The notes below the pieces were generated by a model. That model saw only the letters and a list, made by a program, of their open reading frames with translations, had not been told where the DNA came from and did no database searches. Below are positions 3,290 to 56,500 of a stretch of DNA of 64,000 nt, piece by piece. This DNA comes from Tachypleus tridentatus (taxonomy: Eukaryota > Arthropoda > Merostomata > Xiphosura > Limulidae): the NCBI RefSeq assembly GCF_004210375.1, contig NC_134835.1:74120447-74184446 (forward strand). Reading direction: 5' to 3'. The position numbers and the translations under genes are program-made. Each line of letters begins with the position of its first letter. Position 1 is the first letter of the stretch.

Positions 3290-3876
3290 GGTGCAACAAT
3301 GTCAGATAAAAGAAAACGAGTTAAAAAACTGACCAATGCATAGTCTAGTTAAGAAAACTTCCTCTTTCTGATCCTTGTGGAAGCAAGATGGCCAAAGTTC
3401 AATAGAGGGTTTTATTTGGAAAAGCTTGTTTTCACGTTGCTCACTCCAAGCCAACTGGCACAGAGCTGAGTCTTGAATACAGGACCATAGTCCATGTATG
3501 AAACAGACACAGCAGTGATAGTGCCAGAGCAGACAGATTTAGCTGCAGTGTCAGTGAGCCCATTCCTGTGAATACCAACATGGCCTGGTATCTAGAAAAA
3601 CTGGATAGAAGTAGATGTTAAAAGAGAAATGGGCCTGTCAGTTTTGAATATTGATGAGAACTGATGTGAAGCAATTCCAGGGCCAGTAGAGAACAAAGTG
3701 AATCAGTACAAATGGTGCAATTTGAGTACTGCTTTGCTTCTATGTGATCCAGGGCAAGAGAAATGGCATACAGTTCAGCAGTGAACACAGAAAATGTTGA
3801 GGGGATTCTGTGTGCAACCACCGAACCACAACAAACCATGGCAGAGCCCACACAATCACCTGATTTTGAACCATCC
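3290..3876 (-). pseudogene. Non-LTR retrotransposon RNase H domain and C-terminal tail
   Basis: The minus strand encodes the RNase H domain of an I/Jockey-group LINE, which removes the RNA strand after reverse transcription. Blocks in order are: FTAELYAISLALDHIEAKQ (active-site Glu), CTICTDSLCSLLALE (active-site Asp), a degraded 'W.PGHVGI..N..TDTAAKS' block around 3540-3600, then a tail near 3310-3420 resembling the family's 'EEVFLTRLRIGH..LTHSYLL'. The first 77 codons (3618-3851) are open; the rest needs frame shifts and crosses stops. The upstream reverse transcriptase is absent. The N-terminal end coincides with the palindrome centre at 3877-3894, so the fragment was cut there rather than by ordinary 5' truncation. 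Confidence 0.8.
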
Positions 3877-4026
3877 TTCTATTTCTATTTATATGGATGG
3901 TTTGAAATCAGGTGACTCTGTGGGCTCTGCCATGGTTTGTTGTGGCTCAGTGGTTGCATACAGAATCCACTCAACATTTTCTGTGTTCACTGCTGAACTG
4001 TACGCCATTTCTCTTGTCCTGGAGTA
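3745..4026. repeat. Head-to-head inverted duplication of RNase H sequence
   Basis: Arms 3745-3876 and 3895-4026 are reverse complements across an 18-nt spacer. I count about 10 mismatches in roughly 130 bp. Both arms encode the same RNase H segment, so this is a true palindromic duplication and not two different parts of one element. Confidence 0.85.
3895..4026 (+). pseudogene. Second, inverted copy of the RNase H fragment
   Basis: Plus-strand copy reading YMDGLKSGDSVGSAMV (first active-site Asp in YMDG) and then FTAELYAISLVLE (active-site Glu). The frame is open through this arm but leaves homology near 4024-4026. There the sequence changes abruptly into the hAT-like relic lying on the opposite strand. 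Confidence 0.75.
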
Positions 4027-6242: not shown

Positions 6243-6391
6243 TGTATGCATGGATGCGAAAGTAAATTCAAAACAACGGCCTTAAGTTGGGAATAGTACA
6301 CTGGAAATGCTACTGTAGCCCGAAATAATGAAGTGGACTATTCCCAACCTAAGGTCGTTGTTTTGAATTTACTTTCGCATCCATGCATGCA
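6243..6391. repeat. Fold-back repeat (55-bp arms)
   Basis: Arms 6243-6297 and 6337-6391 are reverse complements with about three mismatches, around a 39-nt loop. The core GCGAAAGTAAATTCAAAACA appears inverted as TGTTTTGAATTTACTTTCGC (with one flanking difference). Such hairpins are typical of fold-back MITEs. No target-site duplication was identified. Confidence 0.85.
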
Positions 6392-16291: not shown

Positions 16292-16413
16292 TTTATATGC
16301 AAAAACGGCTCGTTTGGGCTGAGAAAACACTTTTACATAGAAGAGCGAACAACGTTTCGACCTTCTATGTAAAAGTGTTTTCTCAGCCCGAACGAGCCGT
16401 TTTTGCATATAAA
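16292..16413. repeat. Fold-back repeat (52-bp arms)
   Basis: Arms 16292-16343 and 16362-16413 are reverse complements with a single mismatch. The spacer is 18 nt (16344-16361). The arm includes CAAAAACGGCTCGTTTGGGC and CTGAGAAAACACTTTTACAT. The near-perfect match implies a recent palindromic duplication, gene conversion or selection on the hairpin. Confidence 0.9.
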
Positions 16414-25492: not shown

Positions 25493-25548
25493 ACATCTGA
25501 CATATCTAAACGTTTCTTTAGTATTTGTGATCATTGTTTAACAGCATA

Positions 25549-26455
25549 CGAGGTCTGTTCAAAAAATACGCGGACTGACGTCATAAAACAAAATGTACTT
25601 TATTTAGAAGTTACAGGTCTGGGACCCTTTCAAAGTACTCTCCTCCCCAACGCACACACTTATCCCAACAGTGTTTCCACTTGTTGAAACAGTCCTGGTA
25701 CGCTTTTTTTTTAATGCCCTCCAGCTCCTTCGTCGCATTTGCCTTAATCTCGGGAATCGTCTCAAATCTTCTTCCTTTCAAGGGTCTTTTGAGTTTGGGG
25801 AACAAGAAAAAATCGCAAGGAGCAAGGTCAGGTGAGTAGGGGGGTGGGGAAGAACAGTGATCGATTGTTTGGCCAAAAACTCACGAGTTCTGAGGGCTGA
25901 ATTTCGCAGCAACGCGGTGCATCTTCAATTTTTCGGTCAAAATCTCGTAACAAGATCCAACTGATATCCCACACTCTTCAGCAAGCTCCCTGACAGTCAG
26001 ACGTCGATTTGCCCGCACCAGGGTGTTGATTTTGTCGACATGTGGGTCGTCAGTTGACGTGGAAGGACGTCCAGGACGCTCATCATCTTCAATGGACTGT
26101 CGACCATCTTTAAAACGTTCATGCCACTTGAAACATGCCGTACGCTTCATAGCAACATCACCGTAAGCCGTGTTAAGCATAGCAAAAGTTTCAGTCGCAG
26201 ATTTTTCCAAGTTCAACACAAAATTTCACAGCAAGTCGTTGCTCCTTCAGGTCATTCATTCTGAAATCCGCCAAACGAAAAAATCGCACTTCACTTAAAA
26301 CCGCGTAGCTAATACACAAATGATGATATCTGCAATCGGGAAATGGCTTCGTAATCAGCTGATCTGTGCGAACCTAGCGACATCAAGCGGATTCCCCTGG
26401 AACCAACTGGAGCCGCGCAATTCAAACAGTCCGCGTATTTTTTGAACAGCCCTCG
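25549..26455 (-). mobile_element. Mariner transposon, internally deleted
   Basis: Bounded by 28-bp terminal inverted repeats with one mismatch. The left end starts CGAGGTCTGTTCAAAAAATA at 25549. The right end is the reverse complement finishing at 26455. Each end is flanked by the dinucleotide TA (25547-25548 and 26456-26457), the target duplication typical of Tc1/mariner elements. The length of 907 bp is well below the usual ~1.3 kb. The transposase is on the minus strand and has lost its centre. The sharp ends and near-identical repeats indicate a comparatively young insertion. Confidence 0.93.
25611..26265 (-). pseudogene. Mariner transposase with frameshift and central deletion
   Basis: Cut-and-paste transposase of the mariner family, DD34D catalytic triad. 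The start codon near 26263 opens a frame MNDLKEQRLAVKFCVELGK. An extra A in the run at about 26205-26210 shifts it into the 25881-26219 frame, which encodes the two helix-turn-helix DNA-binding motifs: SATETFAMLNTAYGDVAMKR, CFKWHERFKDGRQSIEDDER, PGRPSTSTDD, RRLTVRELAEECGISVGSCY. After KMHRVAAKF the sequence jumps to the C-terminal part (TREFLAKQSITVLP-like). It then continues in another frame to YSPDLAPCDFFLFPKLKRPL, ending near 25611 with WGGEYFERVPDL. The deletion removed the region with the first two catalytic Asp residues. The third Asp (in APCD) remains. Non-functional. Confidence 0.9.
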
Positions 26456-26865
26456 TATTAAGTTATGGTAGGTTATCGTTATCTCATTTGCTTAATTAAC
26501 AGGAGTATTTTACAGAAATCATATATTAAATCTCGACTAGACAAAAAACAGCATTGTAACATTAAAGTCAATAAATCTGTTAAAGTGACAACAGTTAGAT
26601 ATTCCATCCAATTTTGAGACCATCGATATATTATATGTAGTAACCTAATATCAGATGAAGACTGTTTAATTGTGTCGCTTAGGATTATAGTTAGTCCTAA
26701 TCCGTGATCTATAATATATATGGAATGCAAATATGTAAGGTTTGTTAATATAATCTAGTAATGTCTGTTCCACTGATAACTTTACTTAGTATAAGATGGT
26801 TGGTAGAATTTATCTGAGGTATTTTTAGTGTAAAAAACTGAATCATTTGTCTTTCCTTTCTCTTT
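26456..26865. other. No gene recognised; AT-rich spacer
   Basis: The minus-strand frame at 26479-26730 has no recognisable domain. Confidence 0.45.
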
Positions 26866-28460: not shown

Positions 28461-28595
28461 TTAACACTCCTACGAAAAGTGGGGCCTAATAGGCCCCAGA
28501 GCAACTTGAAAGGTTATTAATATTAGGCTAATAATTTTGTATTTAAATGAAATTGCCATTTAAATCCATTAATGAATGGATTAACGAGATTCCCA

Positions 28596-28630
<35 letters not shown>

Positions 28631-28685
28631 GGTGAACGGGCTTGGAGAAATCAGGACTAGAAACGTCTTTTCGTAGGAGTGTTAA
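28461..28685. mobile_element. TTAA-flanked terminal-inverted-repeat element carrying 28S rRNA sequence
   Basis: A perfect 19-bp inverted repeat, 28461-28479 and 28667-28685, begins and ends with TTAA. Read as a piggyBac-type insertion, TTAA (28461-28464 and 28682-28685) is the duplicated target. The element itself is then 28465-28681 (217 bp) with perfect 15-bp ends CACTCCTACGAAAAG. Inside are a 17-bp palindrome (28481-28497, GGGGCCTA-A-TAGGCCCC), a 9-bp-arm hairpin (28541-28565) and an 8-bp-arm hairpin (28563-28582). A stretch of large-subunit rRNA sequence follows (28572-28654). There is no transposase, so it would be non-autonomous. Perfect termini suggest recent activity. Because TTAA is self-complementary, it cannot be separated from the inverted repeat by sequence alone, so the superfamily assignment is an inference. 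Confidence 0.75.
28572..28654 (+). pseudogene. Fragment of 28S rRNA (R1/R2 target zone)
   Basis: About 83 nt match the highly conserved eukaryotic 28S region that contains the R1 insertion site. It begins ATGAATGGATTAACGAG, then ATTCCCACTGTCCCTATCTA, CTATCTAGCGAAACCACAGC, and ends near GAACGGGCTTGG and ATCAG. Against the remembered consensus the differences cluster at CCAAGGGAAC (here CCAGGTGAAC) and near GGCAGAATCAG (here GGAGAAATCAG). The flanks are not rRNA, so this is a captured or transposed fragment and not part of an rDNA unit. Confidence 0.9.
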
Positions 28686-28843: not shown

Positions 28844-29239
28844 GAGAAAATTAATAACACTATGTAACACAAATATTTTTCCTGGATAGTATGTTTTACT
28901 TCTCAATTGCTTATGCTGTAAAAGTACAGAAAATGGCCATTATTCCCTTCAAACTTTGCTTTTGTGAACTGGATAATGAAATTTAGAAATTCACCTATTT
29001 TCTGTGTAGAAACGGGCAAATTTGCACATTTTAATTTACATAAGATCTGAATAAAACAACATATGAATCAAGATTTACATGTATTTATACTAAAGTTATA
29101 CAAAAATGTTTAGAAGTGAGTATTTTTTCGAGATTTGCGACTGTAATGTAAATCACTTTCAAGTATCAGTCCCGAAATATAGTCTCTCATCATGTTTTCG
29201 TTATACACTCCTCGGTAGCGGCGTTCAAAGTCCAGTATA
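28844..29239. other. No gene recognised; spacer before a Tc1 relic
   Basis: The plus-strand frame at 29106-29528 crosses the Tc1 terminal repeat at 29240 and has no domain, so it is fortuitous. Confidence 0.5.
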
Positions 29240-31817: not shown

Positions 31818-31861
31818 TATGTAACACTTGTTACAAAGAACAAGAGACACTCATGATAATG

Positions 31862-33290
31862 TAACACTTGTTACAAAGAACAAGAGAACTCGTGATAATA
31901 TAACACTTGTTACAAAAAAAAGATATACTCTTGTTAATGTAACACTGGTTACAAAGAACAAGAAACAATCCTGTTAATATAGCACTTGTTACAAAGAATA
32001 AGAGAACTCGTGTTAATGTAACACTTGATAGAAAAAACCAGACAACTCGTGTTAATATAACACTTGTTTCAAAGAACAAGAGACACTCGTGTTAATGAGA
32101 AACTTGTAACAAAGAACAAGAGACACTCGTAATAAGGTAACACTTGTTACAAAGAACAACAAACAATCATTTTAAAGTAACACTTGTTACAAAGAATAAA
32201 AGAAGTCGTATTAATATAACACTTGTTACAAAGAACAACAGACACTCATGTTAATGTAACACTTGTTACAAAGAACAAGAGGTCGTCTAAATATAACACT
32301 TGCTACAAAGAACAAGAAGCAATCATGTTAATATAACATTTGTTACAAAGAACAAGAAAACTCGTGTTAATGTAACACTTGTTACAAAGAACAAGAAACA
32401 ATCATGTTAAAATAACACTTTTTTCAAACAACAAGAGACAATCATGTTAATATAACACTTGTTACAAAGAATAAGAAACACTCACGATATGATAACACTT
32501 CTCACAAAGAACAAGAAAACTCGTGTTTATGCAACACTTGTTACAAAGAACAAGAGAACTCGTGATAATATAACACTTGTTACAAAAAAAAGATATACTC
32601 TTGTTAATGTAACACTGGTTACAAAGAACAAGAAACAATCCTGTTAATATAGCACTTGTTACAAAGAATAAGAGAACTCGTGTTAATGTAACACTTGATA
32701 GAAAAAACCAGACAACTCGTGTTAATATAACACTTGTTTCAAAGAACAAGAGACACTCGTGTTAATGAGAAACTTGTAACAAAGAACAAGAGACACTCGT
32801 AATAAGGTAACACTTGTTACAAAGAACAACAAACAACCATTTTAAAGTAACACTTGTTACAAAGAATAAAAGAAGTCGTATTAATATAACACTTGTTACA
32901 AAGAACAACAGACACTCATGTTAATGTAACACTTGTTACAAAGAACAAGAGGTCGTCTAAATATAACACTTGCTACAAAGAACAAGAAGCAATCATGTTA
33001 ATATAACATTTGTTACAAAGAACAAGAAAACTCGTGTTAATGTAACACTTGTTACAAAGAACAAGAAACAATCATGTTAAAATAACACTTTTTTCAAACA
33101 ACAAGAGACAATCATGTTAATATAACACTTGTTACAAAGAATAAGAAACAATCATGTTAAAATAACACTTTTTTCAAACAACAAGAGACAATCATGTTAA
33201 TATAACACTTGTTACAAAGAATAAGAAACACTCACGATATGATAACACTTCTCACAAAGAACAAGAAAACTCGTGTTTATGTAACACTTG
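31862..33290. repeat. 670-bp higher-order tandem duplication inside satellite 1
   Basis: The ordered set of variant units at 31862-32520 recurs at 32532-33290 with an offset of 670 bp and very few changes, including the private variants ACAAAAAAAAGATATACTC and CACTTGATAGAAAAAACCAG. The second copy carries an additional 80-bp (two-unit) duplication near 33124-33204. Confidence 0.9.
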
Positions 33291-34049
33291 TTACACAGAA
33301 CAAAAGACACTCATGTTAATATAACACTTGTTTGAAAGAACGAGACAATCATGTTAATATAATACATGTTACAAAAAACCAGAAACACGTTAATATAGCA
33401 CTTGTTACAAAGAACAAGAGAACTCCTGTTTATGTAACACTTGCTACAAAGAACAAGAGACACTCATGTTATGTAACACTTCTTACAAAGAACAAGAAAC
33501 ACTCATGTTAATATAACACTTGTTTTAAAGAACAAGAGACACTCATGTTGATATAACACTTGTTACAAAGAACAAGAGACAATCATGATAATATAATACT
33601 TGTTACAAAGAACAAGAAACACTCACGTTATGATAACACTTGTTACAAAGAACAAGAGAACTCGTGCTAATGCAATACTTGTTACAAAGAACAAGAGAAA
33701 GTCATGTTAATGTAACACTTATTACAAAGAAGAAGAAAACTCGTGTTAATATAACACTTGTTTCAGAGAACAAAAGACACTCATGTTGATATAAAACTTG
33801 TTACAAAGAACAAAAAACACTCACGTTATTATAACACTTGTTACAAAGAACAAGAGAACTCGTGTTTATGTAACAGTTGTTACAAAGAACAAAATAACTC
33901 GTTTTAATGTATCACTTGTTACAAAGAACAAGAAACACACACGTTATTATAACACTTGTTACAAAGAACAAGAGACAATCATGTTAATATAACACTTGAT
34001 AAAAAAACAATAGACGCGCATGTTAATGTAACACATGTTACAAAGAACA

Positions 34050-36504
34050 AGAGACACTCATGTTAATGTAACACTTGTCACCAAAAGAAGAGAACTCGTG
34101 TCAATATAACACTTGCTACAAAGAACAAAAAACACTGATGTTAATGTAACACTTGTTACAAAGAACAAGAAACACTCACGTTATTATAACACTTGTTACA
34201 AAGAACAATACACACTCCTGTTAATGAAACACTTGTTACAAAGAATAAAAGTCGTTTTAATATAACACTTGTTACAAAAAACAACACACTAATGTTAGTG
34301 TAACATTTGTTACAAATAACAAGACGTCGTCTTAATATAACACTTTCTACAAAGAACAAGAGACAATATTAATATAACATTTGTTACAAAAAACAAGAAA
34401 ACTCGTGTTAATGTAACACTTGTTATAAAGAACAAGAAACAATCATGTTAAAATAACACTTGCAAGAGACACTCCTGTTAATATAACACTTGTTACAAAC
34501 AACAAGAGACAATCATGTTAATATAACACTTGTTACAAAGAAGAAAAAAACTCGTGTTGATATAAAACTTGTTACAAAGATCAAGAGAAACTTATGTGAA
34601 TGTTACACTTGCTACAAAGAACAAAAAACACTCACGTTATGATAACACTTCTTACAAAAAACAAAAGAACTCGTGTTTATGTAACACTTGTTACAAAGAA
34701 CAAGAAACACTCGTGTTAATATAACAGTTGTTACAAAGAAGAAGAGAAATCGTGATAAAGTAACACTTGCTCCAAAGAACAAGAGACACTCATGTTAATG
34801 TAACATTTGGTAGAAGAACAAGAGAACACCTGTCAATATAACACTTGTTTCAAAGAACAAGAGACACTCGTGTTAATATAACACTTATTACAAAGAACAA
34901 AATACACTCGTGTTAATGTAACACTTGTTACGAAAACAAGAGAACTCGTGTCAATATAACACTTGTTACAAAAAAAGACACACATGTAAATGTAACACTT
35001 GTTCCAAGAACAAAAGACACTCATATTAATGTAACACTTGTTACAAAGAACAAGAGACACTCATATTAAAGTAACACTTGTTAGAAAGAACAAGAGACAC
35101 TCATATTAATGTAACACTTGTTACAAAGAACAAGAGACACTCACGTTATTATAACACTTGTTAAAAAAAGAGAACTCGTGTTAATTTTTAAAATTGTTAC
35201 AAAGAACAAGACACTCATGTTAATGTAACACTTATTACAAAGAACAAGAGAACTTCTGTTAATATAACACTTGTTACAAAAAACAAGAGACAATCATGTT
35301 AATATAACACTTGTTACAAAGAAGAAAACTCGTGTTGATATAACACTTTTTACAAAGATTAAGAGAAACTCATGTGAATATTACACTTGTTACAAAAAAT
35401 AAGAAACACTCACGATATGATAACACTTTTTACAAAGAACGAGAAAACTGGTGTTTATGTAACACTTGTTACAGAGAACAAGAGACACTCATTTTAATAT
35501 AACACTTGTAACAAATAAGAAAAGACACTCCTGTTATTGTAACACTTTTAAGAAAGAACGATAGACACTCATATTAATTTAACACTTCTTAGAATTAAAC
35601 AAGAGAACTCGTGTGTATGTAACACTTGTTACAAAAAACAAGAGACACTCATGTTAATATAACACTTGATACATAGAACAAGAGACACGTGTTAATGAAA
35701 CATTTATTACAAAGAACAAGAGACACTGATGATAATATAACACTTGTTAGAATGAACAAGAGACAATCATGTTAATATAACATTTGTTACAAAGAACAAG
35801 AGACACTCATGTTAATGTAACACTTGTCACCAAAAGAAGAGAACTCGTGTCAATATAACACTTGCTACAAAGAACAAAAAACACTGATGTTAATGTAACA
35901 CTTGTTACAAAGAACAAGAAACACTCACGTTATTATAACACTTGTTACAAAGAACAATACACACTCCTGTTAATGAAACACTTGTTACAAAGAATAAAAG
36001 TCGTTTTAATATAACACTTGTTACAAAAAACAAGACGTCGTCTTAATATAACACTTTCTACAAAGAACAAGAGACAATATTAATATAACATTTGTTACAA
36101 AAAACAAGAAAACTCGTGTTAATGTAACACTTGTTATAAAGAACAAGAAACAATCATGTTAAAATAACACTTGCAAGAGACACTCCTGTTAATATAACAC
36201 TTGTTACAAACAACAAGAGACAATCATGTTAATATAACACTTGTTACAAAGAAGAAGAAAACTCGTGTTGATATAAAACTTGTTACAAAGATCAAGAGAA
36301 ACTTATGTGAATGTTACACTTGCTACAAAGAACAAAAAACACTCACGTTATGATAACACTTCTTACAAAAAACAAAAGAACTCGTGTTTATGTAACACTT
36401 GTTACAAAGAACAAGAAACACTCGTGTTAATATAACAGTTGTTACAAAGAAGAAGAGAAATCGTGATAAAGTAACACTTGCTCCAAAGAACAAGAGACAC
36501 TCAT
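34050..36504. repeat. Second segmental duplication inside satellite 1 (offset 1749 bp)
   Basis: The unit order from about 34050 (with the private variant GTCACCAAAAGAAGAGAACT) to about 34785 recurs from about 35799 to 36504. One 40-bp unit (near 34280-34320) is missing from the second copy. The offset at the start is 1749 bp. Older, unrelated units lie between the two. Confidence 0.85.
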
Positions 36505-40559: not shown

Positions 40560-40869
40560 GCACAAGAACGAACTCTACACACTGGATGAGAAGAAACTGG
40601 AAGGAAGTGCCCGACACTCTGAATGAGAAATAACTACAAGAACGAACCCTACACAATGGATGAAAACAAACTGGAAGTGCTCTACACTCCGAGTGGAAAA
40701 GACTACTAGAAAGAACTTTAAACACTGGATGAAAAGATACTGAAAAGAAGTGTCCTACTCTCCGAGTGAGAAATGACTACAAGAAGGAACACTACACACT
40801 GGATGACAAGACACTGTAAGGAAGTGTCTATACTCTAAGTGAGAAATGACTAGAAGAAAGAACCCTACA

Positions 40870-43800
40870 CAGTGAATTGGAAGAAATTGGAAGGAAGTGT
40901 CTTACACACCGAGTGAGAAATGACTACAAGAAAGAACCTTAGACACAAAATGAGAAGAACCTGGAAGGATCTGTCCTAAACTCCGAGTGAGAAATGCCTG
41001 GAATAAAGGCCCTACACACTGGATCAGAAGAAACTGGAACTGTCCTACACTCCGGGTGAGAAACGCCTAGAATAAAGAGCCCGACACAATGGAAGAGAAT
41101 AAACTGGAAAGAAGTAACCTACACACTGAGTGAGAAATGACTACAAAAAGAACCCTACACACTGGATGAGAAGAAACTGGAAGGAATTCTCGTACACTCT
41201 GAGTGAGTAATAACTACAAGTGAGAATCCAACACACTGGGTGAGAAGAATTTGGAAGGAAGTGCCCTACACACTGAGTGAGAAATTACTACAAAGAAGAA
41301 CCCTACACACTGGATGAGAAGAAACTGTCAGGAAGTGTTTTACACTCTGAATGAGAAATGACTAGAATAAAGTGCCCTACACACTGGATGAGAAGAAACT
41401 GGAAGGAACAGTTCTACACCCTGAGTGAGAAATGTCTACAAGATAGAACCCTACACACTGAATGAGAAGAAACTGGAAAGACGTTTACTACACTCTGAGT
41501 GAGAAATCCCTAAAATAAAGAGTCCTACACTCTGGATGAGAAGAAACTGGAAGGAAGTGTTCTAAATTCGAGAGAGAAATCACTACAAGAAAGAACCCTA
41601 CACATTAGATGAGAAGAAACTGGAAGGAAGTGTCCTACACTCTTAGTGAAAATGACTACAAGATAGAACCCTACACACTGGATGAAAAGAAACTGGAAGG
41701 GACTGTCCTAATCTCCGAGTGAGAAGTACCTAGAATAAAGAGCCCTACACACTGGATGAGAAGAAACTAGAAGGAACTGTCTTAATCTCCGAGTGAGAAA
41801 TACCTAGGAGAAAGAGCCCTAAACATTGGAATAGAAAAACTGGAAGGAAGTGCCCTGAACTCTGAGTGAGAAATGACTAGAAGAAACAGCACTACACACT
41901 CGATGATGAGAAACTGGAAGTGCCCTACACTTTGAGTGAGAAATGCCTCGAATATAGAGCCCTACACTCTGGATGAGAAGATACTGGAAGGAAGTGTCCT
42001 ACACTCTGAGTGAGAAATTAATACAAGAAAGATCCATATACACTGGGTGAGAAGAAACTGGAAGTGCCCAACACTCCAACTGAGAAATGACAACAAGAAA
42101 GAGCCCTACACTCTGGATGAGAAGAAACTGGAAGGAACAGTTCTACACTCTGAGTGAGAAATGTCTACAAGATAAAACCCAACACACTGAATGAGAAGAA
42201 ACTGGAAAGGCGTTTACTACACTCTGAATGACAAATCCCTAAAATAAATAGCCCTACACTCTAAATGAGAAGAAACTGGAATGAACTATTTTTCACCCGG
42301 CTGAGAAACGCCTAGAAGAAAGAGCCCTACACACTGAAAGAGAAGAAACTGGAAGGAAGTGCCCTACAGTCTGAGTGAGAAATGACTACAAGAAAGAACC
42401 CTACACACTGGATGAGAAGAAACTAGAATTGTCCAACACTCTGAGAGAGAAATGACCTCAAGAAAGAACCCTACACAGTGGATGAGGGGAAACTGGAAGG
42501 AACTGTCCTACACACCGGGTGAGAAAAGCCTAGAGCAAAGAGCCCTACACACTGGAAGAGAAGAAACTGGAAAGAAGTGCCCTACACTCTGAATGAGAAA
42601 TGACTACAAGAAAGAACCCTACTCACTGGATGAAAAGAAACTGGAAGGAACTCTCCTACACTCCGGGTGAGAAAAGACTAGAATAAAGAGCCCTACACAC
42701 TGGAAGAGAAGAAACTGGAAGGAAGTGCCCTGCACTCTGAGTGAGAAATGACTAGAAGAAACAGCACTACACACTCGATGATGAGAAACTGGAAGTGCCC
42801 TACACTTTGAGTGAGAAATGCCTCGAATATAGAGCCCTACACTCTGGATGAGAAGATACTGGAAGGAAATGTCCTGCACTCCGAGTGAGAAATGACTACA
42901 AGAAAAAACATTACACACTGGAAGAGAAGAAACTGGAAGGAACTGTCCTACACACTAAGTGAGAAATATCTACAAGAAAGAACCCTACACACTGGATAAG
43001 AATTAACTGGTAGGGAGTGCCCTACACTCTGATTAAGAAATGCCTAAAATATAGAGCAATTCACAGTAGATGAGAAGAAACTGAAAGAACGTGCCCTACA
43101 CTCTGAGTGAGAAATAACTACAAGAAAGAACCAAACACACTCAATGGGAAGAAACTGGAAAGAACTGTCCTACACTCTGAGTGAGAAATGACTACAAGAA
43201 AAAAACATTACACACTGGATGAGAAGAAACTGCAAAATCTGTCCTAGACTCCGAGTGAGAAATGACTACAAGAAAGAACCCTACACACTGGATGAGAAGA
43301 AACTGCAAGGAACTGTCCTAATCTCCGAGTGACATATACCTAGAATAAAAAGCCCTACACGCTGGATGACAAGAAACAGGAAGGAACTGTCCTACATACA
43401 ATCTGAGTAAGAAATGCCTAGAAGAAAGAACCCTACACATTGGATGAGAAGAAACTGGAAGGAACTGTCCATTACTTCGGGTAAGAAACGCCTAAAATAA
43501 AAAGCCCTATACACTGAATGAGAAAAAACTGGAAGAACGTGACCTACATTCTGAGTGAGAAATAACTACAAGAAAGAACCCTACACACTGGATAAGAATT
43601 AACTGGAAGGAAGTGCTCTACACTCGGAGTGAGAAATGACTACAAAAAAGATCCCTGCACACTGGATGAGAAGATACTGAAATGAACAGTCCAACACTCT
43701 CAGTGAGAAATGACTACAAGATAGAACCCTACACACTGGATGAGAAGAAACTGGAAGGAACTGTCCTTCACTTCGGGTGAGAAACGCCTAGAATAAAAAA

Positions 43801-46800
43801 AGCCCTATACACTGAATGAGAAAAAACTGGAAGAACGTGACCTACACTCTGAGTGGGAAATGCCTAGAATAAAAGCTCTGCACTCTGAAGGAGAAGAAAC
43901 TGGAAGAACGTGACCTGAGTGGGAAATACCTAGAATAAAGATCCATACTCTCTGGATGAGAAGAAAATGGAAAGAACTGTCCTTCACTTCGGGTGAGAAA
44001 CGTCTAGAAGAAAGAGCCCTACACACTGGAAGAGAAGAAACTGGAAGAACGTGACCTACACTCTGAGTGAGAAATGCCTAGAATAAAGAGCCCTACACTC
44101 TGGATGAGAAGAAACTGGAAGTGCCCTACAATCTGAGTGAGAAATTACTACAAGAATGAACCCCATACACTAAATAAGAAGAAACTGGAAGGAACTGTCC
44201 TACACTCTGAGTGAGAAATGACTACAAGAAAGAAACCTACATACTGAATGATAAGAAACTGGAACGAAGAGTCCTACACTCTGAGAGACAAATGACTGCA
44301 AGAAAAAACTCTACACACTGGTTGAGAAGAAACTGGAAGGAAATGCCCTACAGTCTGAGTGAGAAATGACAACAAAAATGAGCACTACACACTGGATGAG
44401 AAGACACTGGAAGGAACGTTCCTACACACTAAGTGACAAATAATTACAAGAAAGAACCCTACACACTGGATGAGAAAAAACTGGAAGGTACTGTACTACT
44501 CTTCTGGTGAGAAACGCCTAGGATAAAGAGCCCTACACACTGAAAGAGAAGAAACTGGAAGGAAGTGCCCTACTCTCTGAGTGAAAAATGACTACAAGAA
44601 AGTGCACTACACACTGGATGAGATAAAACTGGAAGAGAAGTGCCCTAAATTCTGATTAAGAAATGCCAAGAATTAAAAGCCCTACACATTGGATGAGAAT
44701 AAACTCGAAGGAAGTGTCCTACACTCTGAGTGAGAAATGACTACAAAGAAGAACCCTACACAGTGAATTGGAAGAAATTGGAAGGAAGTGTCTTACACAC
44801 CGAGTGAGAAATGACTACAAGAAAGAACCTTAGACACAAAATGAGAAGAACCTGGAAGGATCTGTCCTAAACTCCGAGTGAGAAATGCCTGGAATAAAGG
44901 CCCTACACACTGGATCAGAAGAAACTGGAACTGTCCTACACTCCGGGTGAGAAACGCCTAGAATAAAGAGCCCGACACAATGGAAGAGAATAAACTGGAA
45001 AGAAGTAACCTACACACTGAGTGAGAAATGACTACAAAAAAGAACCCTACACACTGGATGAGAAGAAACTGGAAGGAATTCTCGTACACTCTGAGTGAGT
45101 AATAACTACAAGTGAGAATCCAACACACTGGGTGAGAAGAATTTGGAAGGAAGTGCCCTACACACTGAGTGAGAAATTACTACAAAGAAGAACCCTACAC
45201 ACTGGATGAGAAGAAACTGTCAGGAAGTGTTTTACACTCTGAATGAGAAATGACTAGAATAAAGTGCCCTACACACTGGATGAGAAGAAACTGGAAGGAA
45301 CAGTTCTACACCCTGAGTGAGAAATGTCTACAAGATAGAACCCTACACACTGAATGAGAAGAAACTGGAAAGACGTTTACTACACTCTGAGTGAGAAATC
45401 CCTAAAATAAAGAGTCCTACACTCTGGATGAGAAGAAACTGGAAGGAAGTGTTCTAAATTCGGAGAGAGAAATCACTACAAGAAAGAACCCTACACATTA
45501 GATGAGAAGAAACTGGAAGGAAGTGTCCTACACTCTTAGTGAAAAATGACTACAAGATAGAACCCTACACACTGGATGAAAAGAAACTGGAAGGGACTGT
45601 CCTAATCTCCGAGTGAGAAGTACCTAGAATAAAGAGCCCTACACACTGGATGAGAAGAAACTAGAAGGAACTGTCTTAATCTCCGAGTGAGAAATACCTA
45701 GGAGAAAGAGCCCTAAACATTGGAATAGAAAAAACTGGAAGGAAGTGCCCTGAACTCTGAGTGAGAAATGACTAGAAGAAACAGCACTACACACTCGATG
45801 ATGAGAAACTGGAAGTGCCCTACACTTTGAGTGAGAAATGCCTCGAATATAGAGCCCTACACTCTGGATGAGAAGATACTGGAAGGAAGTGTCCTACACT
45901 CTGAGTGAGAAATTAATACAAGAAAGATCCATATACACTGGGTGAGAAGAAACTGGAAGTGCCCAACACTCCAACTGAGAAATGACAACAAGAAAGAGCC
46001 CTACACTCTGGATGAGAAGAAACTGGAAGGAACAGTTCTACACTCTGAGTGAGAAATGTCTACAAGATAAAACCCAACACACTGAATGAGAAGAAACTGG
46101 AAAGGCGTTTACTACACTCTGAATGACAAATCCCTAAAATAAATAGCCCTACACTCTAAATGAGAAGAAACTGGAATGAACTATTTTTCACTCCGGCTGA
46201 GAAACGCCTAGAAGAAAGAGCCCTACACACTGAAAGAGAAGAAACTGGAAGGAAGTGCCCTACAGTCTGAGTGAGAAATGACTACAAGAAAGAACCCTAC
46301 ACACTGGATGAGAAGAAACTAGAATTGTCCAACACTCTGAGAGAGAAATGACCTCAAGAAAGAACCCTACACAGTGGATGAGGGGAAACTGGAAGGAACT
46401 GTCCTACACTCCGGGTGAGAAAAGCCTAGAGCAAAGAGCCCTACACACTGGAAGAGAAGAAACTGGAAAGAAGTGCCCTACACTCTGAATGAGAAATGAC
46501 TACAAGAAAGAACCCTACTCACTGGATGAAAAGAAACTGGAAGGAACTCTCCTACACTCCGGGTGAGAAAAGACTAGAATAAAGAGCCCTACACACTGGA
46601 AGAGAAGAAACTGGAAGGAAGTGCCCTGCACTCTGAGTGAGAAATGACTAGAAGAAACAGCACTACACACTCGATGATGAGAAACTGGAAGTGCCCTACA
46701 CTTTGAGTGAGAAATGCCTCGAATATAGAGCCCTACACTCTGGATGAGAAGATACTGGAAGGAAATGTCCTGCACCTGAGTGAGAAATGACTACAAGAAA

Positions 46801-48650
46801 AAACATTACACACTGGAAGAGAAGAAACTGGAAGGAACTGTCCTACACACTAAGTGAGAAATATCTACAAGAAAGAACCCTACACACTGGATAAGAATTA
46901 ACTGGTAGGGAGTGCCCTACACTCTGATTAAGAAATGCCTAAAATATAGAGCAATTCACAGTAGATGAGAAGAAACTGAAAGAACGTGCCCTACACTCTG
47001 AGTGAGAAATAACTACAAGAAAGAACCAAACACACTCAATGGGAAGAAACTGGAAAGAACTGTCCTACACTCTGAGTGAGAAATGACTACAAGAAAAACA
47101 TTACACACTGGATGAGAAGAAACTGCAAAATCTGTCCTAGACTCCGAGTGAGAAATGACTACAAGAAAGAACCCTACACACTGGATGAGAAGAAACTGCA
47201 AGGAACTGTCCTAATCTCCGAGTGACATATACCTAGAATAAAAAGCCCTACACGCTGGATGACAAGAAACAGGAAGGAACTGTCCTACATACAATCTGAG
47301 TAAGAAATGCCTAGAAGAAAGAACCCTACACATTGGATGAGAAGAAACTGGAAGGAACTGTCCATTACTTCGGGTAAGAAACGCCTAAAATAAAAAGCCC
47401 TATACACTGAATGAGAAAAAACTGGAAGAACGTGACCTACATTCTGAGTGAGAAATAACTACAAGAAAGAACCCTACACACTGGATAAGAATTAACTGGA
47501 AGGAAGTGCTCTACACTCGGAGTGAGAAATGACTACAAAAAAGATCCCTGCACACTGGATGAGAAGATACTGAAATGAACAGTCCAACACTCTCAGTGAG
47601 AAATGACTACAAGATAGAACCCTACACACTGGATGAGAAGAAACTGGAAGGAACTGTCCTTCACTTCGGGTGAGAAACGCCTAGAATAAAAAGCCCTATA
47701 CACTGAATGAGAAAAAAACTGGAAGAACGTGACCTACACTCTGAGTGGGAAATGCCTAGAATAAAAAGCTCTGCACTCTGAAGGAGAAGAAACTGGAAGA
47801 ACGTGACCTGAGTGGGAAATACCTAGAATAAAGATCCATACTCTCTGGATGAGAAGAAAATGGAAAGAACTGTCCTTCACTTCGGGTGAGAAACGTCTAG
47901 AAGAAAGAGCCCTACACACTGGAAGAGAAGAAACTGGAAGAACGTGACCTACACTCTGAGTGAGAAATGCCTAGAATAAAGAGCCCTACACTCTGGATGA
48001 GAAGAAACTGGAAGTGCCCTACAATCTGAGTGAGAAATTACTACAAGAATGAACCCCATACACTAAATAAGAAGAAACTGGAAGGAACTGTCCTACACTC
48101 TGAGTGAGAAATGACTACAAGAAAGAAACCTACATACTGAATGATAAGAAACTGGAACGAAGAGTCCTACACTCTGAGAGACAAATGACTGCAAGAAAAA
48201 ACTCTACACACTGGTTGAGAAGAAACTGGAAGGAAATGCCCTACAGTCTGAGTGAGAAATGACAACAAAAATGAGCACTACACACTGGATGAGAAGACAC
48301 TGGAAGGAACGTTCCTACACACTAAGTGACAAATAATTACAAGAAAGAACCCTACACACTGGATGAGAAAAAACTGGAAGGTACTGTACTACTCTTCTGG
48401 TGAGAAACGCCTAGGATAAAGAGCCCTACACACTGAAAGAGAAGAAACTGGAAGGAAGTGCCCTACTCTCTGAGTGAAAAATGACTACAAGAAAGTGCAC
48501 TACACACTGGATGAGATAAAACTGGAAGAGAAGTGCCCTAAATTCTGATTAAGAAATGCCAAGAATTAAAAGCCCTACACATTGGATGAGAATAAACTCG
48601 AAGGAAGTGTCCTACACTCTGAGTGAGAAATGACTACAAAGAAGAACTCT
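40870..48650. repeat. 3.89-kb tandem segmental duplication inside satellite 2
   Basis: 40870-44760 is repeated at 44761-48650 with an offset of 3891-3896 bp. The order of variant units is preserved throughout, including private variants such as CAGTGAATTGGAAGAAATTG and CACTCCAACTGAGAAATGAC. By eye only scattered substitutions and a few 1-5-base indels separate the copies, for example GCACTCCGAG at 42877 against GCACCTGAG at 46772. Confidence 0.92.
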
Positions 48651-49077
48651 ACACACAGGATGAGAAGAAATTGGAAGGAAGTGTCCTAAACGCTGAGTGA
48701 GAAATGCCAAGAATAAAGTGCCCTACACAATGTATGAGAAAAACTGAAAGGACGTTTCCTACATTCTGAGTGAGAAATGTCTGGAATAAAGAGCTCTACA
48801 CTCTGGATGAGAAGAAACTGGAAGGAAGTGACATACATTCTGAGTGAGAAATGACTACAAGAAAGAACCCTACATACTGGATGATAAGAAACTGGAAGGA
48901 ATAGTTGTACACTCTGAGTGATAAATGACTGCAGGAAAGAACCCTACACACTGGATGAGAAGAAACTGGAAGGAAGTGGTATCACGCTGAGTGAGAAATA
49001 ACTACAAGAACGAACCCTACACTCTGGATGAGAATAATTGGAAGGAACTGTCCTACACGCTGAGTGAGAAATGACTA

Positions 49078-49500
49078 CAAGAAAGAACCCTACACAATGG
49101 ATGAAAAGAAACTGGAAGTGCTCTACACTCCGAGTGGAAAAGACTACTAGAAAGAACTTTAAACACTGGATGAAAAGATACTGAAAAGAAGTGTCCTACT
49201 CTCCGAGTGAGAAATGACTACAAGAAGGAACACTACACACTGGATGAGAAGACACTGGAAGGAAGTGTCTATACTCTAAGTGAGAAATGACTACAAGAAA
49301 GAACCCTACACAGTGAATTGGAAGAAATTGGAAGGAAGTGTCTTACACACCGAGTGAGAAATGACTACAAGAAAGAACCCTAGACACAAAATGAGAAGAA
49401 CCTGGAAGGATCTGTCCTAAACTCCGAGTGAGAAACGCCTAGAATAAAGAGCCCGACACAATGGAAGAGAATAAACTGGAAGGAAGTAACCTACAAACTG
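49078..49500. repeat. Third, partial copy of the start of the satellite 2 duplication
   Basis: It matches 40636-41130, including TGGATGAAAACAAACTGGAA-type units and the CAGTGAATTG marker. A deletion removes about one unit near 49435. After about 49540 the array is a mosaic of pieces seen at 42055-42375 and 43680-44100. Confidence 0.75.
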
Positions 49501-52500
49501 AGTGAGAAATGACTACAAGAAAGAAACCTACATACTGGATGATAAGAAACTGAAATGAACAGTCCAACACTCTCAGTGAGAAATGACTACAAGATAGAAC
49601 CCTACACACTGGATGAGAAGAAACTGGAAGGAACTGTCCATTACTTCGGGTGAGAAACGCCTAAAATAAAAAGCCCTATACACTGAATGAAAAAAAACTG
49701 GAAGAACGTGACCTACACTCTGAGTGAGAAATGCCTAGAATAAAGAGCCCTACACTCTGGATGAGAAGAAACTGGAAGGAAGTGCCCTACTGTTTGAGTG
49801 AGAAATAACTACAAAAATGAATCCGATACACTAAATAAGAAGAAACTGGAAGGAACTGTCCTACACTCTGAGTGAGAAATACCTAGAATAAATAGCCCTA
49901 AACTCTGGGTGGAAAGAAACTGGAAGGAAGTGCTTTACACTTTGAGTGAAAAATGACAACCAGAATGAGCACTACACACTGGATGAGAAGAAACTGGAAG
50001 TGCCATACAGTCTGAGTGAGAAGTAACTACAAGAACGAACCCTACATACTGGATGAGAAGAAACTGGAAGCAACTGTCCAACACACTGAGTGAGAAATAA
50101 CTACAAGAAAGAACCCTACACATTGGGGGAGAAGAAATTGGAAGGAAGTGTCCTACACTCTGAGTGAGAAATGACTACAAGAAAAAACTCTACACACTGG
50201 TTGAGAAGAAACTGGAATGATGTGCCCTACCCTCTGAGTGAGAAATGACTAGAAGAAAGAACACTACACACTGGATGAGAATAAACTGGAAGGAACGTTC
50301 CTACACACTAAGTGACAAATAATTACAAGAAAGAACCCTGCACACTGGATGAGAAAAAACTGGAAGGTACTGTAATACTCTTCTGGTGAGAAACGCCTAG
50401 GATGAAGAGCCCTACACAATGAAAGAGAAGAAACTGGAAGGAAGTGCCCTACTCTCTGAGTGAAAAATGACTACAAGAATGAGCACTACACACTGGATGA
50501 GAAGAACCTGGAAGTGCCCAACACTCCAACTGAGAAATGACAACAAGAAAGAGCCCTACACTCTGGATGAGAAGAAACTGGAATGAACTGTTTTTCACTC
50601 CGGCTGAGAAACGCCTAGAAGAAAGAGCCCTACACACTGAAAGAGAAGAAACTGGAAGGAAGTGCCCTACAGTCTGAGTGAGAAATGACTACAAGAAAGA
50701 ACCCTACACACTGGATGAGAAGAAACTGGAAGGAACTGTCCCACAGTCTGAGTGAGAAATCACTACAAGAAAGAATCCTATATACTGGATGAGATGAAAC
50801 TGTAAAGAAGTGCTCTAAACTCTAAATAGAAATGCCAAGAATTAAGAGCCCTACCCACTGTATGAGAAGAAACTGGAATGAACTGTCCTTCACTCCGGCT
50901 GAGAAACGCCTAGAATAAAGAGCCCTAAACATTGGAAGAGAAGAAACTGGAAGAAAGTGCCCTACAATCTGAGTGAGAAATGAATACACGAGAAAGCACT
51001 ACACACTGGATGAGGAGACATTGGAAGGAACTGTCCTACAGTCTGAGTGAGAAATCACTACAAGAAAGAACCCTACCTACCGGATGAGATTAAACTGTAA
51101 GAGAAGTGCTCTAAACTCTAAATAGAAATGCCAAGAATAAAGAGCCCTGCACACTGGATGAGAAGAAACTGGAAGGAAGTGTCCTACACTCTGAGTGAGA
51201 AATTAATGCAAGAAAGATCCCTACACACTGGTTGAGAAGAAACTGGAATTGTCCAACACTCTGAGAGAGAAATGACCACAAGAAAGAACCCTACTCACTG
51301 GATCATAAGAAACTGGAAGAGTTCTACACTTTGAGTGAGAAATGCCTCGAATAAAGAGCCCTACACTCTGGATAAGAAGAAACTGGAAGGAATTTCTTTG
51401 CACTCTGAGTGAGAAAAGGTTACAAGAAAGAAATTGAAACACTGGATGAGAAGATACTGGAATAAAATGTCCTACACTCCGAGTGAGAAATGACTACACG
51501 AAAAAACATTTCACACTGAATGAGAAGAAACAGGAAGGAACTGTCATACACTCTAATTTAGAAATTACAGGAAGAAAGAACCCTACACTCTGCATGAGAA
51601 GAAACTGGAAGTGTTTTACAGTCTGAGAGAGAAATGACTACAAGAAAGAACCCTACACAGTGGATGAGAAGAAACGGGAAGGAAGTGCTCTAAACTCGGA
51701 GTGAGAAACGACTACAAGAAAGAACCCCACACACTGGATTAGAAGAAACTGTAACGAACTTTACTAATCTCCGAGTGAGGAATGCCTAGAATAGAGAGCC
51801 CTACACTCTGGATGAGAAGGAACTGTCCTACACTCCTGGTGAGGAACGCCTAGGATAAAGAGCCCTATACACTGGAAGAGAAGAAAGTGGAAGGAAGTGC
51901 CTTACTCTCTGATTGAGAAATGACAGCAAGAAAGAGCACTACATACTGGATGATAAGAAACTGGAACGAAGAGTGCAGCTTTCTGAGTGACAAATGATTG
52001 GAAGAAAGAGCCCTACACTCCAGATGAGAAAAAGCTGGAAGGAAGTGCCCTACACTCTGAGAGAGAAATGACTACAAGAAAGAGGCTACACACTGAATGG
52101 GAAGGAAGTGCTTTACACTCCGAGTGAGAAAAGACTACAAGAAAGAACCCTACACACTGAATGAGAAGAAACTGGAAAGACGTTTACTACACTCTGAGTT
52201 AGAAATCCCTAAAATAAAGAGTCCTACACTCTGGGTGAGAGATACTGGAAGGAAGTGTCCTACACTCCGAGTGAGAAATGAGTACAAGAAAGAACACTAC
52301 ATATCGGATGAGAAGAAACAGGAAGGAAGTGTCCTATACTCTGTGTGAGAAATGTCTACAGGGTAGAACCCTACACACTGGATAAGAAGAAACTGCAAGG
52401 AACTATCCTAAACTCTGAGTGACAAATGCCTAGAATAAAGAGCCTTATAACTGGATGAGAAGAAACTGAAGGAACTGTCCTACACTCCGAGTGAGAAATG

Positions 52501-53000
52501 CCTAGAATAAAGAGCCCTACACACTGGATGAGAAGAAACTGATAGGAAGTGCCCTACACACTGGATGAGAAGAAACTGATAGGAAGTGCCCTACACTCTG
52601 AGTGAGAAATGACAACAAGAAAGAACCCTACATACTGGATGATTAAGAAACTGGAAGGAATAGTTGTACACTCTGAGTGATAAATGACTGCAGGAAAGAA
52701 CCCTACACACTGGATGAGAAGAAATGGGAAATGTCCTACATTCTGAGAGCGAAATGACTACAAGAAAGAACCCTACACACTGGATGAGGAGAAACTGGAA
52801 GGAACTGTTCTAAACTCCGAGTGAGAAATGCCTAGAATAAAGAGCCCTACACAATGGATGAGAAGAAACTGGAAGGAAGTACCCTACACTCTGAGTGAGA
52901 AATAACTACAAGGAAGAACCCTTCACACTGGATGAGAAGAAACTGGAAGGAAGAGCCCTACACTCTGGATAAAATCTAACTGGAAGGAATAGTCCTATTT

Positions 53001-53565
53001 TGAAATTCAAAATGGATGCCTTGAACATTAATGTAAAAGCTGGCAATACGGCGCGCTGCGCAAAGACGATCGGAGATTCCAGCTTTATTTACAATGGGTT
53101 TAACTTAGGATATTGAAAGTAAAATAAACATAAAAACTTATAAACCACAGTGTACATCCTTCTGACTTGCATACGAGAAACACGTAAATACCTAAACACC
53201 TTAGTGATCCACGATAGGTTAGTTACAAAATATATACAATTATCGAGATTGTTTTGTATTGCGCAAACACGTATCAGTCAATTGATGGCGACATCTATAA
53301 AGTTATCCTTATCAGATTATACGAGTTTTCAAACATGTTTACAAGTCTGCTATTTTTTCTTCTACCCAAGGAGGAAGTGAAGTACTATCAATGTTAGAAT
53401 TATTATGCAGAAAGTGTAAAAACATCTTGGTCCACATTTCAGTAGCCAGTGTATGAGATTTACTTAACCCTTGTTTGAAATTACAGCAGGTTAATAATCC
53501 AGAACTTAGGTTTCCTCTGTATGAAATTATTTGAAAGCGAAGGAAAGAAATTGGGATGTAAAATT
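53001..53565. other. Unique spacer between satellites 2 and 3
   Basis: About 565 bp of non-repetitive DNA. A short CG-rich patch lies at 53048-53072 (ACGGCGCGCTGCGCAAAGAC), inside a stem formed by AAAGCTGG (53036-53043) and CCAGCTTT (53079-53086). The plus-strand frame at 53150-53380 has no recognisable domain. Confidence 0.5.
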
Positions 53566-56500
53566 GATCAGTTTAATATCATATACTTACTTAGTATATC
53601 ACTCAAAGTGATCAGTTTAATATCATATACTTAGTATATCACTCAAAGTGATCAGTTTAATATCATATACTTAGTATATCACTCAAAGTGATCAGTTTAA
53701 TATCATATACTTAGTATATCACTCAAAGTGATCAGTTTAATGTCATATACTTAGTATATCACTCAAAGTGATCAGTTTAATGTCATATACTTAGTATATC
53801 ACTCAAAGTGATCAGTTTAATGTCATATACTTACTTAGTATATCACTCAAAGTGATCAGTTTAATATCATATACTTACTTAGTATATCACTCAAAGTGAT
53901 CAGTTTAATGTCATATACTTAGTATATCACTCAAAGTGATCAGTTTAATATCATATACTTAGTATATCACTCAAAGTGATCAGTTTAATATCATATACTT
54001 AGTATATCACTCAAAGTGATCAGTTTAATATCATATACTTACTTAGTATATCACTCAAAGTGATCAGTTTAATGTCATATACTTACTTAGTATATCACTC
54101 AAAGTGATCAGTTTAATGTCATATACTTAGTATATCACTCAAAGTGATCAGTTTAATGTCATATACTTAGTATATCACTCAAAGTGATCAGTTTAATGTC
54201 ATATACTTAGTATATCACTCAAAGTGATCAGTTTAATGTCATATACTTACTTAGTATATCACTCAAAGTGATCAGTTTAATATCATATACTTACTTAGTA
54301 TATCACTCAAAGTGATCAGTTTAATGTCATATACTTACTTAGTATATCACTCAAAGTGATCAGTTTAATATCATATACTTACTTAGTATATCACTCAAAG
54401 TGATCAGTTTAATGTCATATACTTAGTATATCACTCAAAGTGATCAGTTTAATGTCATATACTTACTTAGTATATCACTCAAAGTGATCAGTTTAATATC
54501 ATATACTTAGTATATCACTCAAAGTGATCAGTTTAATGTCATATACTTAGTATATCACTCAAAGTGATCAGTTTAATGTCATATACTTGCTTAGTATATC
54601 ACTCAAAGTGATCAGTTTAATGTCATATACTTGCTTAGTATATCACTCAAAGTGATCAGTTTAATGTCATATACTTAGTATATCACTCAAAGTGATCAGT
54701 TTAATGTCATATACTTACTTAGTATATCACTCAAAGTGATCAGTTTAATATCATATACTTACTTAGTATATCACTCAAAGTGATCAGTTTAATGTCATAT
54801 ACTTAGTATATCACTCAAAGTGATCAGTTTAATATCATATACTTACTTAGTATATCACTCAAAGTGATCAGTTTAATGTCATATACTTACTTAGTATATC
54901 ACTCAAAGTGATCAGTTTAATGTCATATACTTACTTAGTATATCACTCAAAGTGATCAGTTTAATATCATATACTTACTTAGTATATCACTCAAAGTGAT
55001 CAGTTTAATGTCATATACTTACTTAGTATATCACTCAAAGTGATCAGTTTAATATCATATACTTACTTAGTATATCAGTCAAAGTGATCAGTTTAATATC
55101 ATATACTTACTTAGTATATCACTCAAAGTGATCAGTTTAATGTCATATACTTAGTATATCACTCAAAGTGATCAGTTTAATATCATATACTTAGTATATC
55201 ACTCAAAGTGATCAGTTTAATATCATATACTTAGTATATCACTCAAAGTGATCAGTTTAATATCATATACTTATTTAGTATATCACTCAAAGTGATCAGT
55301 TTAATGTCATATACTTAGTATATCACTCAAAGTGATCAGTTTAATGTCATATACTTACTTAGTATATCACTCAAAGTGATCAGTTTAATGTCATATACTT
55401 AGTATATCACTCAAAGTGATCAGTTTAATATCATATACTTAGTATATCACTCAAAGTGATCAGTTTAATGTCATATACTTAGTATATCACTCAAAGTGAT
55501 CAGTTTAATGTCATATACTTAGTATATCACTCAAAGTGATCAGTTTAATGTCATATACTTACTTAGTATATCACTCAAAGTGATCAGTTTAATGTCATAT
55601 ACTTAGTATATCACTCAAAGTGATCAGTTTAATGTCATATACTTAGTATATCACTCAAAGTGATCAGTTTAATATCATATACTTACTTAGTATATCACTC
55701 AAAGTGATCAGTTTAATGTCATATACTTAGTATATCACTCAAAGTGATCAGTTTAATATCATATACTTAGTATATCACTCAAAGTGATCAGTTTAATATC
55801 ATATACTTAGTATATCACTCAAAGTGATCAGTTTAATATCATATACTTACTTAGTATATCACTCAAAGTGATCAGTTTAATGTCATATACTTACTTAGTA
55901 TATCACTCAAAGTGATCAGTTTAATGTCATATACTTAGTATATCACTCAAAGTGATCAGTTTAATGTCATATACTTAGTATATCACTCAAAGTGATCAGT
56001 TTAATGTCATATACTTACTTAGTATATCACTCAAAGTGATCAGTTTAATATCATATACTTACTTAGTATATCACTCAAAGTGATCAGTTTAATGTCATAT
56101 ACTTAGTATATCACTCAAAGTGATCAGTTTAATATCATATACTTAGTATATCACTCAAAGTGATCAGTTTAATATCATATACTTAGTATATCACTCAAAG
56201 TGATCAGTTTAATATCATATACTTACTTAGTATATCACTCAAAGTGATCAGTTTAATGTCATATACTTACTTAGTATATCACTCAAAGTGATCAGTTTAA
56301 TGTCATATACTTACTTAGTATATCACTCAAAGTGATCAGTTTAATGTCATATACTTACTTAGTATATCACTCAAAGTGATCAGTTTAATGTCATATACTT
56401 ACTTAGTATATCACTCAAAGTGATCAGTTTAATGTCATATACTTACTTAGTATATCACTCAAAGTGATCAGTTTAATGTCATATACTTACTTAGTATATC

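Follow-up and report, generated by a model that had tools for sequence, protein, structure and literature searches.

The 225-bp sequence that runs from TTAA to TTAA at positions 28461-28685 (+ strand) of the window, the 64,000-nucleotide stretch of horseshoe-crab DNA analysed here, is very probably a MITE of the piggyBac superfamily that consists of a transposon left end, a 28S rRNA insert and a bare right terminal repeat, and that is mobilised in trans. Its outer TTAAs are the duplicated target. The original prediction had proposed a non-autonomous piggyBac-type element, and the copies that we read bear this out in their common tips, their TTAA, an empty site and a transposase-bearing relative. 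COX1 on contig C205 of the same genome, translated with code 5, is 100% identical over 446 amino acids to Tachypleus tridentatus, as against 99% for Carcinoscorpius and 97% for Limulus, so that the host is probably T. tridentatus or, less likely, a sister Tachypleus.

Structure of the element in the window

The element has the following parts (positions in the window).

28461..28685, + strand: whole element, 225 bp, delimited by the end counts, the TTAA tips and the empty site; among copies the flanks differ and both orientations occur
28461..28479, + strand: left terminal inverted repeat TTAACACTCCTACGAAAAG, whose first 18 nt recur unchanged at both tips of the autonomous element L067
28480..28498, no strand: 19-bp palindrome TGGGGCCTAATAGGCCCCA directly inside the left end, a palindrome present at both ends of the autonomous element
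28461..28560, + strand: segment corresponding to nt 1-100, the left end, of the autonomous piggyBac element, with 98% identity to L067 over 100 bp
28561..28571, + strand: 11-nt filler TAAATCCATTA from the left end to the 28S piece, the left junction being exact in 28 of 32 copies
28572..28654, + strand: captured 28S rRNA piece, sense, 83 nt, from comparison with 28S units and the 32-copy consensus
28655..28666, + strand: 12-nt filler GACTAGAAACGT, exact in 22 of 32 copies and with at most two mismatches in 31 of 32
28667..28685, - strand: right terminal inverted repeat, from repeat pairing, without a palindrome inside it and with G as the 19th base from the tip

Both the predicted perfect 19-bp inverted repeat with TTAA at its outer ends (28461-28479 against 28667-28685) and the predicted 28S piece of 83 nt at 28572-28654, with an internal TTAA at 28581-28584, are exact to the base. 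In the copies read the ends of the element are CACTCCTACGAAAAG. The 28S piece reads ATGAATGGATTAACG...GAGAAATCAG, and within it, at 28597-28610, lies what we take to be the R1 target 14-mer. Two 28S units of this genome served for comparison: the family consensus departs from L102 at 3 of the 83 sites of the piece and from L101 at 5 of 83, and the window copy carries one difference beyond the family consensus. Against the usual 28S reading the 32-copy consensus differs at one site, CCAGGGG for CCAAGGG, where the window copy has CCAGGTG. Rfam gave no match in the window at the gathering threshold, with LSU_rRNA_eukarya reaching E = 0.14 for 28616-28645, and for a piece as short as 83 nt Rfam alone is a weak test. 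The filler TAAATCCATTA and the start of the 28S piece form a small hairpin. The element as a whole folds on itself far more strongly than shuffled sequences (z = -5.8 as DNA and -5.1 as RNA, with none of 200 shuffles equalling it), as expected from its inverted ends and internal palindromes. By analogy with T. ni piggyBac, the palindrome at 28480-28498 is the predicted, and probable, site bound by the C-terminal cysteine-rich domain of the transposase (PMC7351741, in excerpt).

Three large satellite arrays lie elsewhere in the window, at 31822-36504, 40562-52997 and 53561-63998, with units of about 40, 74 (37) and 44 bp; AT skew is strong (0.34-0.40) in the middle array. At 25539-26465 a 927-bp stretch stands between 39-bp inverted arms of 90% complementarity; it is possibly a Tc1/mariner-type element, the type being our guess. 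Three fold-back-like inverted repeats with short loops, at 3748-4023, 6243-6391 and 16292-16413, have arms of 134, 60 and 58 nt that are 91-95% complementary.

Copies in the genome and the autonomous partner

With up to two mismatches the 19-bp end has 5,676 matches (2842 + 2834) in the element's own genome of 2.17 Gb, against 25 (9 + 16) for the reversed pattern. A 38-mer across the junction of left end and 28S piece gave 2,018 matches with up to three mismatches, and its reversed control gave none. These genome-wide counts against controls led us to reject a single-copy element or a chance hairpin, and they agree with a multicopy element with fixed ends, which the original prediction had raised as a possibility. 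From 2,018 against half of 5,676, about 71% of the family would carry the 28S piece, a rough share that assumes two countable ends per element and that combines searches with different mismatch limits. Within the window alone the end motif is at chance level (2 matches against 1.5 expected, with up to three mismatches). The short length of 225 bp, the inverted ends, the lack of coding capacity, the 2,018 junctions and the near-identity of the copies are those of a MITE.

A first DNA search of the genome returned 15 places only, because it skipped common words: the window copy, six further full copies, one copy with a deletion (L008) and seven 28S pieces that lack transposon ends. For the same reason 15 was rejected as the true copy number. 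The variants CCAGGTGAACGG and, in several of the loci L009-L015, AAGTGAACGG were likewise rejected as host 28S, since this search favoured copies with rare variants. The eight copies that it found have unrelated flanks and hold the element in both orientations. We also considered whether the deletion in L008 is the precise loss of a TTAA-bounded piece; by eye there is one extra A at its junction, and we regard it as an ordinary deletion.

Among the first 100 ends listed, all on C1, there are 34 pairs of exact ends within 500 bp, of which 28 measure 223-227 bp and the remaining six 64, 76, 144, 162, 319 and 393 bp, one each; 32 ends have no exact partner. The loci read contain 42 distinct elements with both tips at three mismatches or fewer, 35 of them with the 28S piece, in a set that is not random, as eight come from the first DNA search and 20 loci were picked for odd size or single ends, and in which L056 and L057, having common flanks, are not independent. 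The mean distance from consensus is 1.5% for the 32 copies of 215-230 bp; variants shared at columns 175-181 of their alignment partly reflect the choice of rare-word copies by the first DNA search. The smallest family members read, L042 and L046 (57 and 64 bp), consist of about two tips and one palindrome and, if mobile, would be very short piggyBac substrates.

An exact TTAA is present at both tips in 39 of the 42 elements, the exceptions being L002, L008 and L056. Joining the flanks across one TTAA and comparing them with the loci read identified three paralogous sites. One of them is a clean empty site: the local paralogue of L038, which lies at the very end of L039, has a single TTAA, and since the locus ends there the comparison on the right covers about 25 bases. 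The filled site L047, with TTAA, has an empty paralogue at 28855-29057 of the window that reads TCAA instead (86% identity across the site). The third pair, L002 and its empty paralogue, is 73% identical; the empty copy has TTAC, and the right tip of L002 is mutated to TTAG. TTAA on both sides and empty sites had been anticipated for a piggyBac-type element, and 39 of 42 elements and one clean empty site of the three agree with this. The stretch at 28855-29057 is itself part of a repeat that at L047 holds a 162-bp TTAA member of the same family.

A profile search of the genome with PF13843 gave 1,650 candidates; 116 were scored, all of them matching, and six loci were taken for reading. One of these, L067, contains at 361-2569 an element of 2,209 bp with the 18-bp tips TTAACACTCCTACGAAAA at both ends and an open reading frame of 520 amino acids. 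Its protein matches DDE_Tnp_1_7 (PF13843) with E = 2.5e-68, covering the profile from 1 to 349 of 349, and T. ni piggyBac (PDB 6x67) with E = 5e-66. The best relative of the transposase in a protein search has 65% identity over 67% of the query, and the tail of the protein is a cysteine-rich stretch. VDEQL at 219, TDNFF at 297 and GVDTLDQ at 392 align with piggyBac and presumably contain the three catalytic aspartates.

The first 100 bp of L067 are 98% identical to nt 1-100 of the MITE, and in ten further autonomous copies the left end has 98-99% identity over 98-100 bp (10/10). The left tip is found in all ten (with one mismatch in L097), as is the right tip (with one mismatch in L088). L067 has the palindrome TGGGGCCTAATAGGCCCCA 1 bp inside its left 18-bp repeat and a match of 18/19 bases 27 bp inside the right one. 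In the further copies the left palindrome is present in 10 of 10, with 0-2 mismatches, and the right palindrome lies 27 bp from the tip in nine, the tenth having been read over too short a stretch. An autonomous relative with the same ends and a piggyBac transposase, as the original prediction would have it, was thus found in L067 and ten further copies. Ends held in common with an element coding for DDE_Tnp_1_7 (L067 and 10 of 10) and duplication of a TTAA target both place the MITE in the piggyBac superfamily.

Other candidates for the partner were discarded. The five other PF13843 loci read (L066 and L068-L071) have no such ends at up to five mismatches within 3-4 kb each, and L058, in which the common tip is followed by unrelated sequence, has no open reading frame above 119 amino acids in 5.3 kb. 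A 12-nt likeness between positions 102-113 of the autonomous element and the R1 stretch of 28S was considered as the site of capture and dropped, the junction being elsewhere.

Birth of the MITE and source of its 28S piece

We propose that the founder was an internally deleted copy of the autonomous element, perhaps with left ends on both sides (LE-LE). The 83-nt 28S fragment would have been taken up in gap or break repair, with the right arm reduced to its tip, and the autonomous element's transposase would have mobilised the resulting MITE in trans, by cut and paste at TTAA. It may have remained a good substrate if one end, with the palindrome, is gripped by the C-terminal domain of the transposase and the other needs little beyond its tip. 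In the autonomous copies the 19th base is T (eight) or G (two) at the left tip and A at the right tip (10/10), and in the right repeat of the MITE it is G; this one base suggests that the right tip of the MITE descended from a left end. Left-end sequence occurs on both sides, without 28S, in L046, L047, L048 and L050. In the 393-bp L049 two left ends flank a 28S piece that extends further 3', and one locus matched the L049 junction exactly. L049 may be the progenitor or may represent a second, separate capture.

Both ends of T. ni piggyBac carry, in an asymmetric arrangement, a 19-bp palindromic internal repeat to which a dimer of the cysteine-rich domain binds, on one end only in the structures (PMC7351741 and PMC11707139, both in excerpt). 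LE35 and RE63 are the working pair in cells, the wild-type enzyme does not mobilise a pair of left ends there, and footprints span the internal repeats of both ends (PMC7351741, in excerpt). The inactivity of LE-LE and the footprints on both internal repeats weaken the ideas of a single grip and of easy LE-LE success.

The 28S piece or a filler could also be functional, having replaced the right subterminal region, improved the element as a substrate and been selected and not merely carried, a reading that we consider rather unlikely. It would fit with the prevalence of the 28S-bearing form (about 71% of the family) even though two-palindrome forms exist, and piggyBat is known to be inhibited by subterminal sites (PMC11707139, in excerpt). 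However, a single lucky founder would also account for the copy number. In addition, the 28S part is less conserved than the left end, with 31 differences in 20 x 83 sites (1.9%) against 19 in 20 x 100 (1.0%) among 20 copies of exactly 225 bp (those from the first DNA search and the misaligned L057 excluded), although it may just hold more CpG.

The distribution of 28S sequence in the genome bears on where the piece came from. A 42-mer of the R2 site, which is absent from the MITE piece, has 125 matches, and 107 were obtained with a 39-mer from further upstream; the controls gave 0. A 37-mer directly 3' of the MITE piece has 12 matches, eight of them at C11:2.35-3.76 Mb, and a 34-mer of the sarcin-ricin loop has seven, six of them in the same region, this last test being stricter than the others because the host differs from the pattern at two letters. 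Outside the C11 region the adjacent downstream 28S (4 of 12 matches) and the sarcin-ricin loop (1 of 7) are therefore nearly absent. The C11 region contains 28S units, two of which were scanned (L101 and L102). In both, by eye, non-28S sequence lies upstream of TAGCCAAATGCC, which fits an R2-type insertion. At L075, whose 28S part lies near 1468, non-28S sequence similar to that of L101 and L102 is joined to TAGCCAAATGCC, as for an R2-type 3' end, and the downstream 28S stops at the ATCAG edge.

The genome thus holds more than 100 dispersed 28S fragments that run from upstream of R2 to about 60 nt past R1, reaching variably far in the 5' direction and ending on the 3' side within a zone of about 30 nt. 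The 28S core was found in 14 of the 15 non-MITE loci tried (L009-L015 and L073-L080), L014 being the exception; as these loci were found through their likeness to the R1 stretch, they are informative by their edges only. Measured against a partly reconstructed reference, the 3' edge agrees with that of the MITE, ATCAG, exactly or to one base in L009, L073, L075, L076, L077 and L080, and L011 has its 5' start at ATGAATGG, the same as in the MITE. Other 3' edges are CTTGG (L011, L074), GAGAAA (L010), ATC (L015), GGGGAAA (L012, L079) and GGGGAAAGAAG (L078); an insertion shortens the edge measure of L013, and in L012 a rearrangement does the same to the 5' extent. Since edges vary, those common to the MITE and the scattered pieces may partly be coincidence. 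Some of the scattered pieces are tandem or permuted (L011, L015, L077), and those of L012 and L073 lie, by eye, inside a tRNA-SINE-like repeat. The scattered pieces might have arisen by retroposition of a defined 28S RNA piece.

Because 28S pieces without transposon ends occur elsewhere, some of them with the edges of the MITE, we moderately favour an origin of the MITE's 28S sequence in a scattered fragment, or in the process that scatters them, over a stay in rDNA. A more far-reaching version, in which a 28S piece spread through RNA became the inner part of a functional piggyBac end and the one-palindrome form prevailed over siblings with two palindromes, spreading about 2,000 R1 target sites across the genome, appears to us improbable; we rate it lower because the 28S part varies more than the left end.

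The original prediction had instead supposed a passage of the element through rDNA in which it acquired flanking 28S, a piggyBac copy inserted at a 28S TTAA taking the flank with it through aberrant excision or choice of ends. The captured fragment does contain a TTAA. However, its 28S is continuous across that TTAA, which therefore represents an empty site, and it sits internally, behind fillers and away from the tips. The R2-R1 stretch of 28S is also scattered without transposon ends. A check of rDNA units for insertions at the ATTAACG site had been suggested, and neither of the two 28S units read (L101, L102) has one at the TTAA of the fragment. In such flanking sequence as was viewed, no element among the 42 was seen inside a 28S unit. 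The captured fragment starts, by our placement, 25 nt upstream of what we take to be the R1 target 14-mer. Combining the base preferences given in PMC3849761 with the usual 28S sequence, we assume that the Pokey TTAA is that of CTCTCTTAAGG and not the ATTAACG site. Situated 75 bp upstream of the R1 site, the Pokey TTAA falls outside the fragment, so that the view of the fragment's TTAA as a Pokey-type site does not hold, and Pokey itself remains the precedent for the rDNA route, with inserts in 28S and with IGS and ITS2 pieces of rDNA inside it (PMC3849761, in excerpt). The different position of the Pokey TTAA and the unbroken 28S disfavour a stay in rDNA, though not decisively, and we regard it as distinctly unlikely, whereas uptake of a scattered fragment remains our preferred reading.

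A 28S-derived SINE, or a chance hairpin that resembles a TTAA element, has next to no probability, since despite the scattered 28S fragments in the genome it is contradicted by the fixed inverted ends, the TTAA duplication and the 98% identity of nt 1-100 to a transposase-bearing element, in line with the distinctness from 28S-derived SINEs that had been claimed.

Relation to known systems

Pieces of rDNA within a piggyBac element (the IGS and ITS2 of Pokey) and MITEs with interiors of other origin are already known. We recognised no report of a highly amplified piggyBac MITE with a 28S coding interior in the open-licence PMC literature, and piggyBac goes unmentioned in the available portions of the horseshoe-crab genome papers PMC7011531, PMC7815833 and PMC7210998. 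The element is an unusually clear case of gene-piece capture, in which highly constrained rRNA coding sequence lies inside a piggyBac MITE. As one genome offers the autonomous partner, sibling forms, an empty site and independent 28S fragments, the steps in the birth of a MITE are traceable. Natural forms exist with two palindromes, as in L050, and with a single one, as in the 225-bp element; they bear on the question of why piggyBac needs asymmetric ends and are a possible natural test of its end requirements. In this genome, about 2,000 dispersed 28S pieces of 83 nt could also confound the mapping of rRNA, the analysis of small RNAs and counts of R1 targets.

The autonomous element resembles T. 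ni piggyBac (IFP2) in its DDE_Tnp_1_7 transposase with a C-terminal cysteine-rich tail and in TTAA duplication, as well as in its short inverted repeats and asymmetric 19-bp palindromic internal repeats (PMC7351741 and PMC11707139, both in excerpt). It differs in that the 18-bp tips of L067 have another sequence and its transposase is distant, aligning over 74-464 of 520 amino acids, and the right end of the MITE, unlike those of T. ni piggyBac, is without a palindrome. The CMITEs of Acropora corals differ from our element in that its internal region is here identified as 28S. Pack-TYPE elements of plants are likewise DNA transposons that are non-autonomous and take up coding DNA of their host (PMC8903248, in excerpt), but these are described in plants and the piece captured here is from an animal rRNA gene. 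Pokey and mPok of Daphnia share with the horseshoe-crab family the piggyBac superfamily, TTAA, MITEs of an autonomous element and rDNA inside; both have as their target in 28S a TTAA near the R2 site, and spacer repeats are found in Pokey, whereas the horseshoe-crab piece is 28S coding sequence, in a MITE of 225 bp as compared with about 750 bp (PMC3849761, in excerpt).
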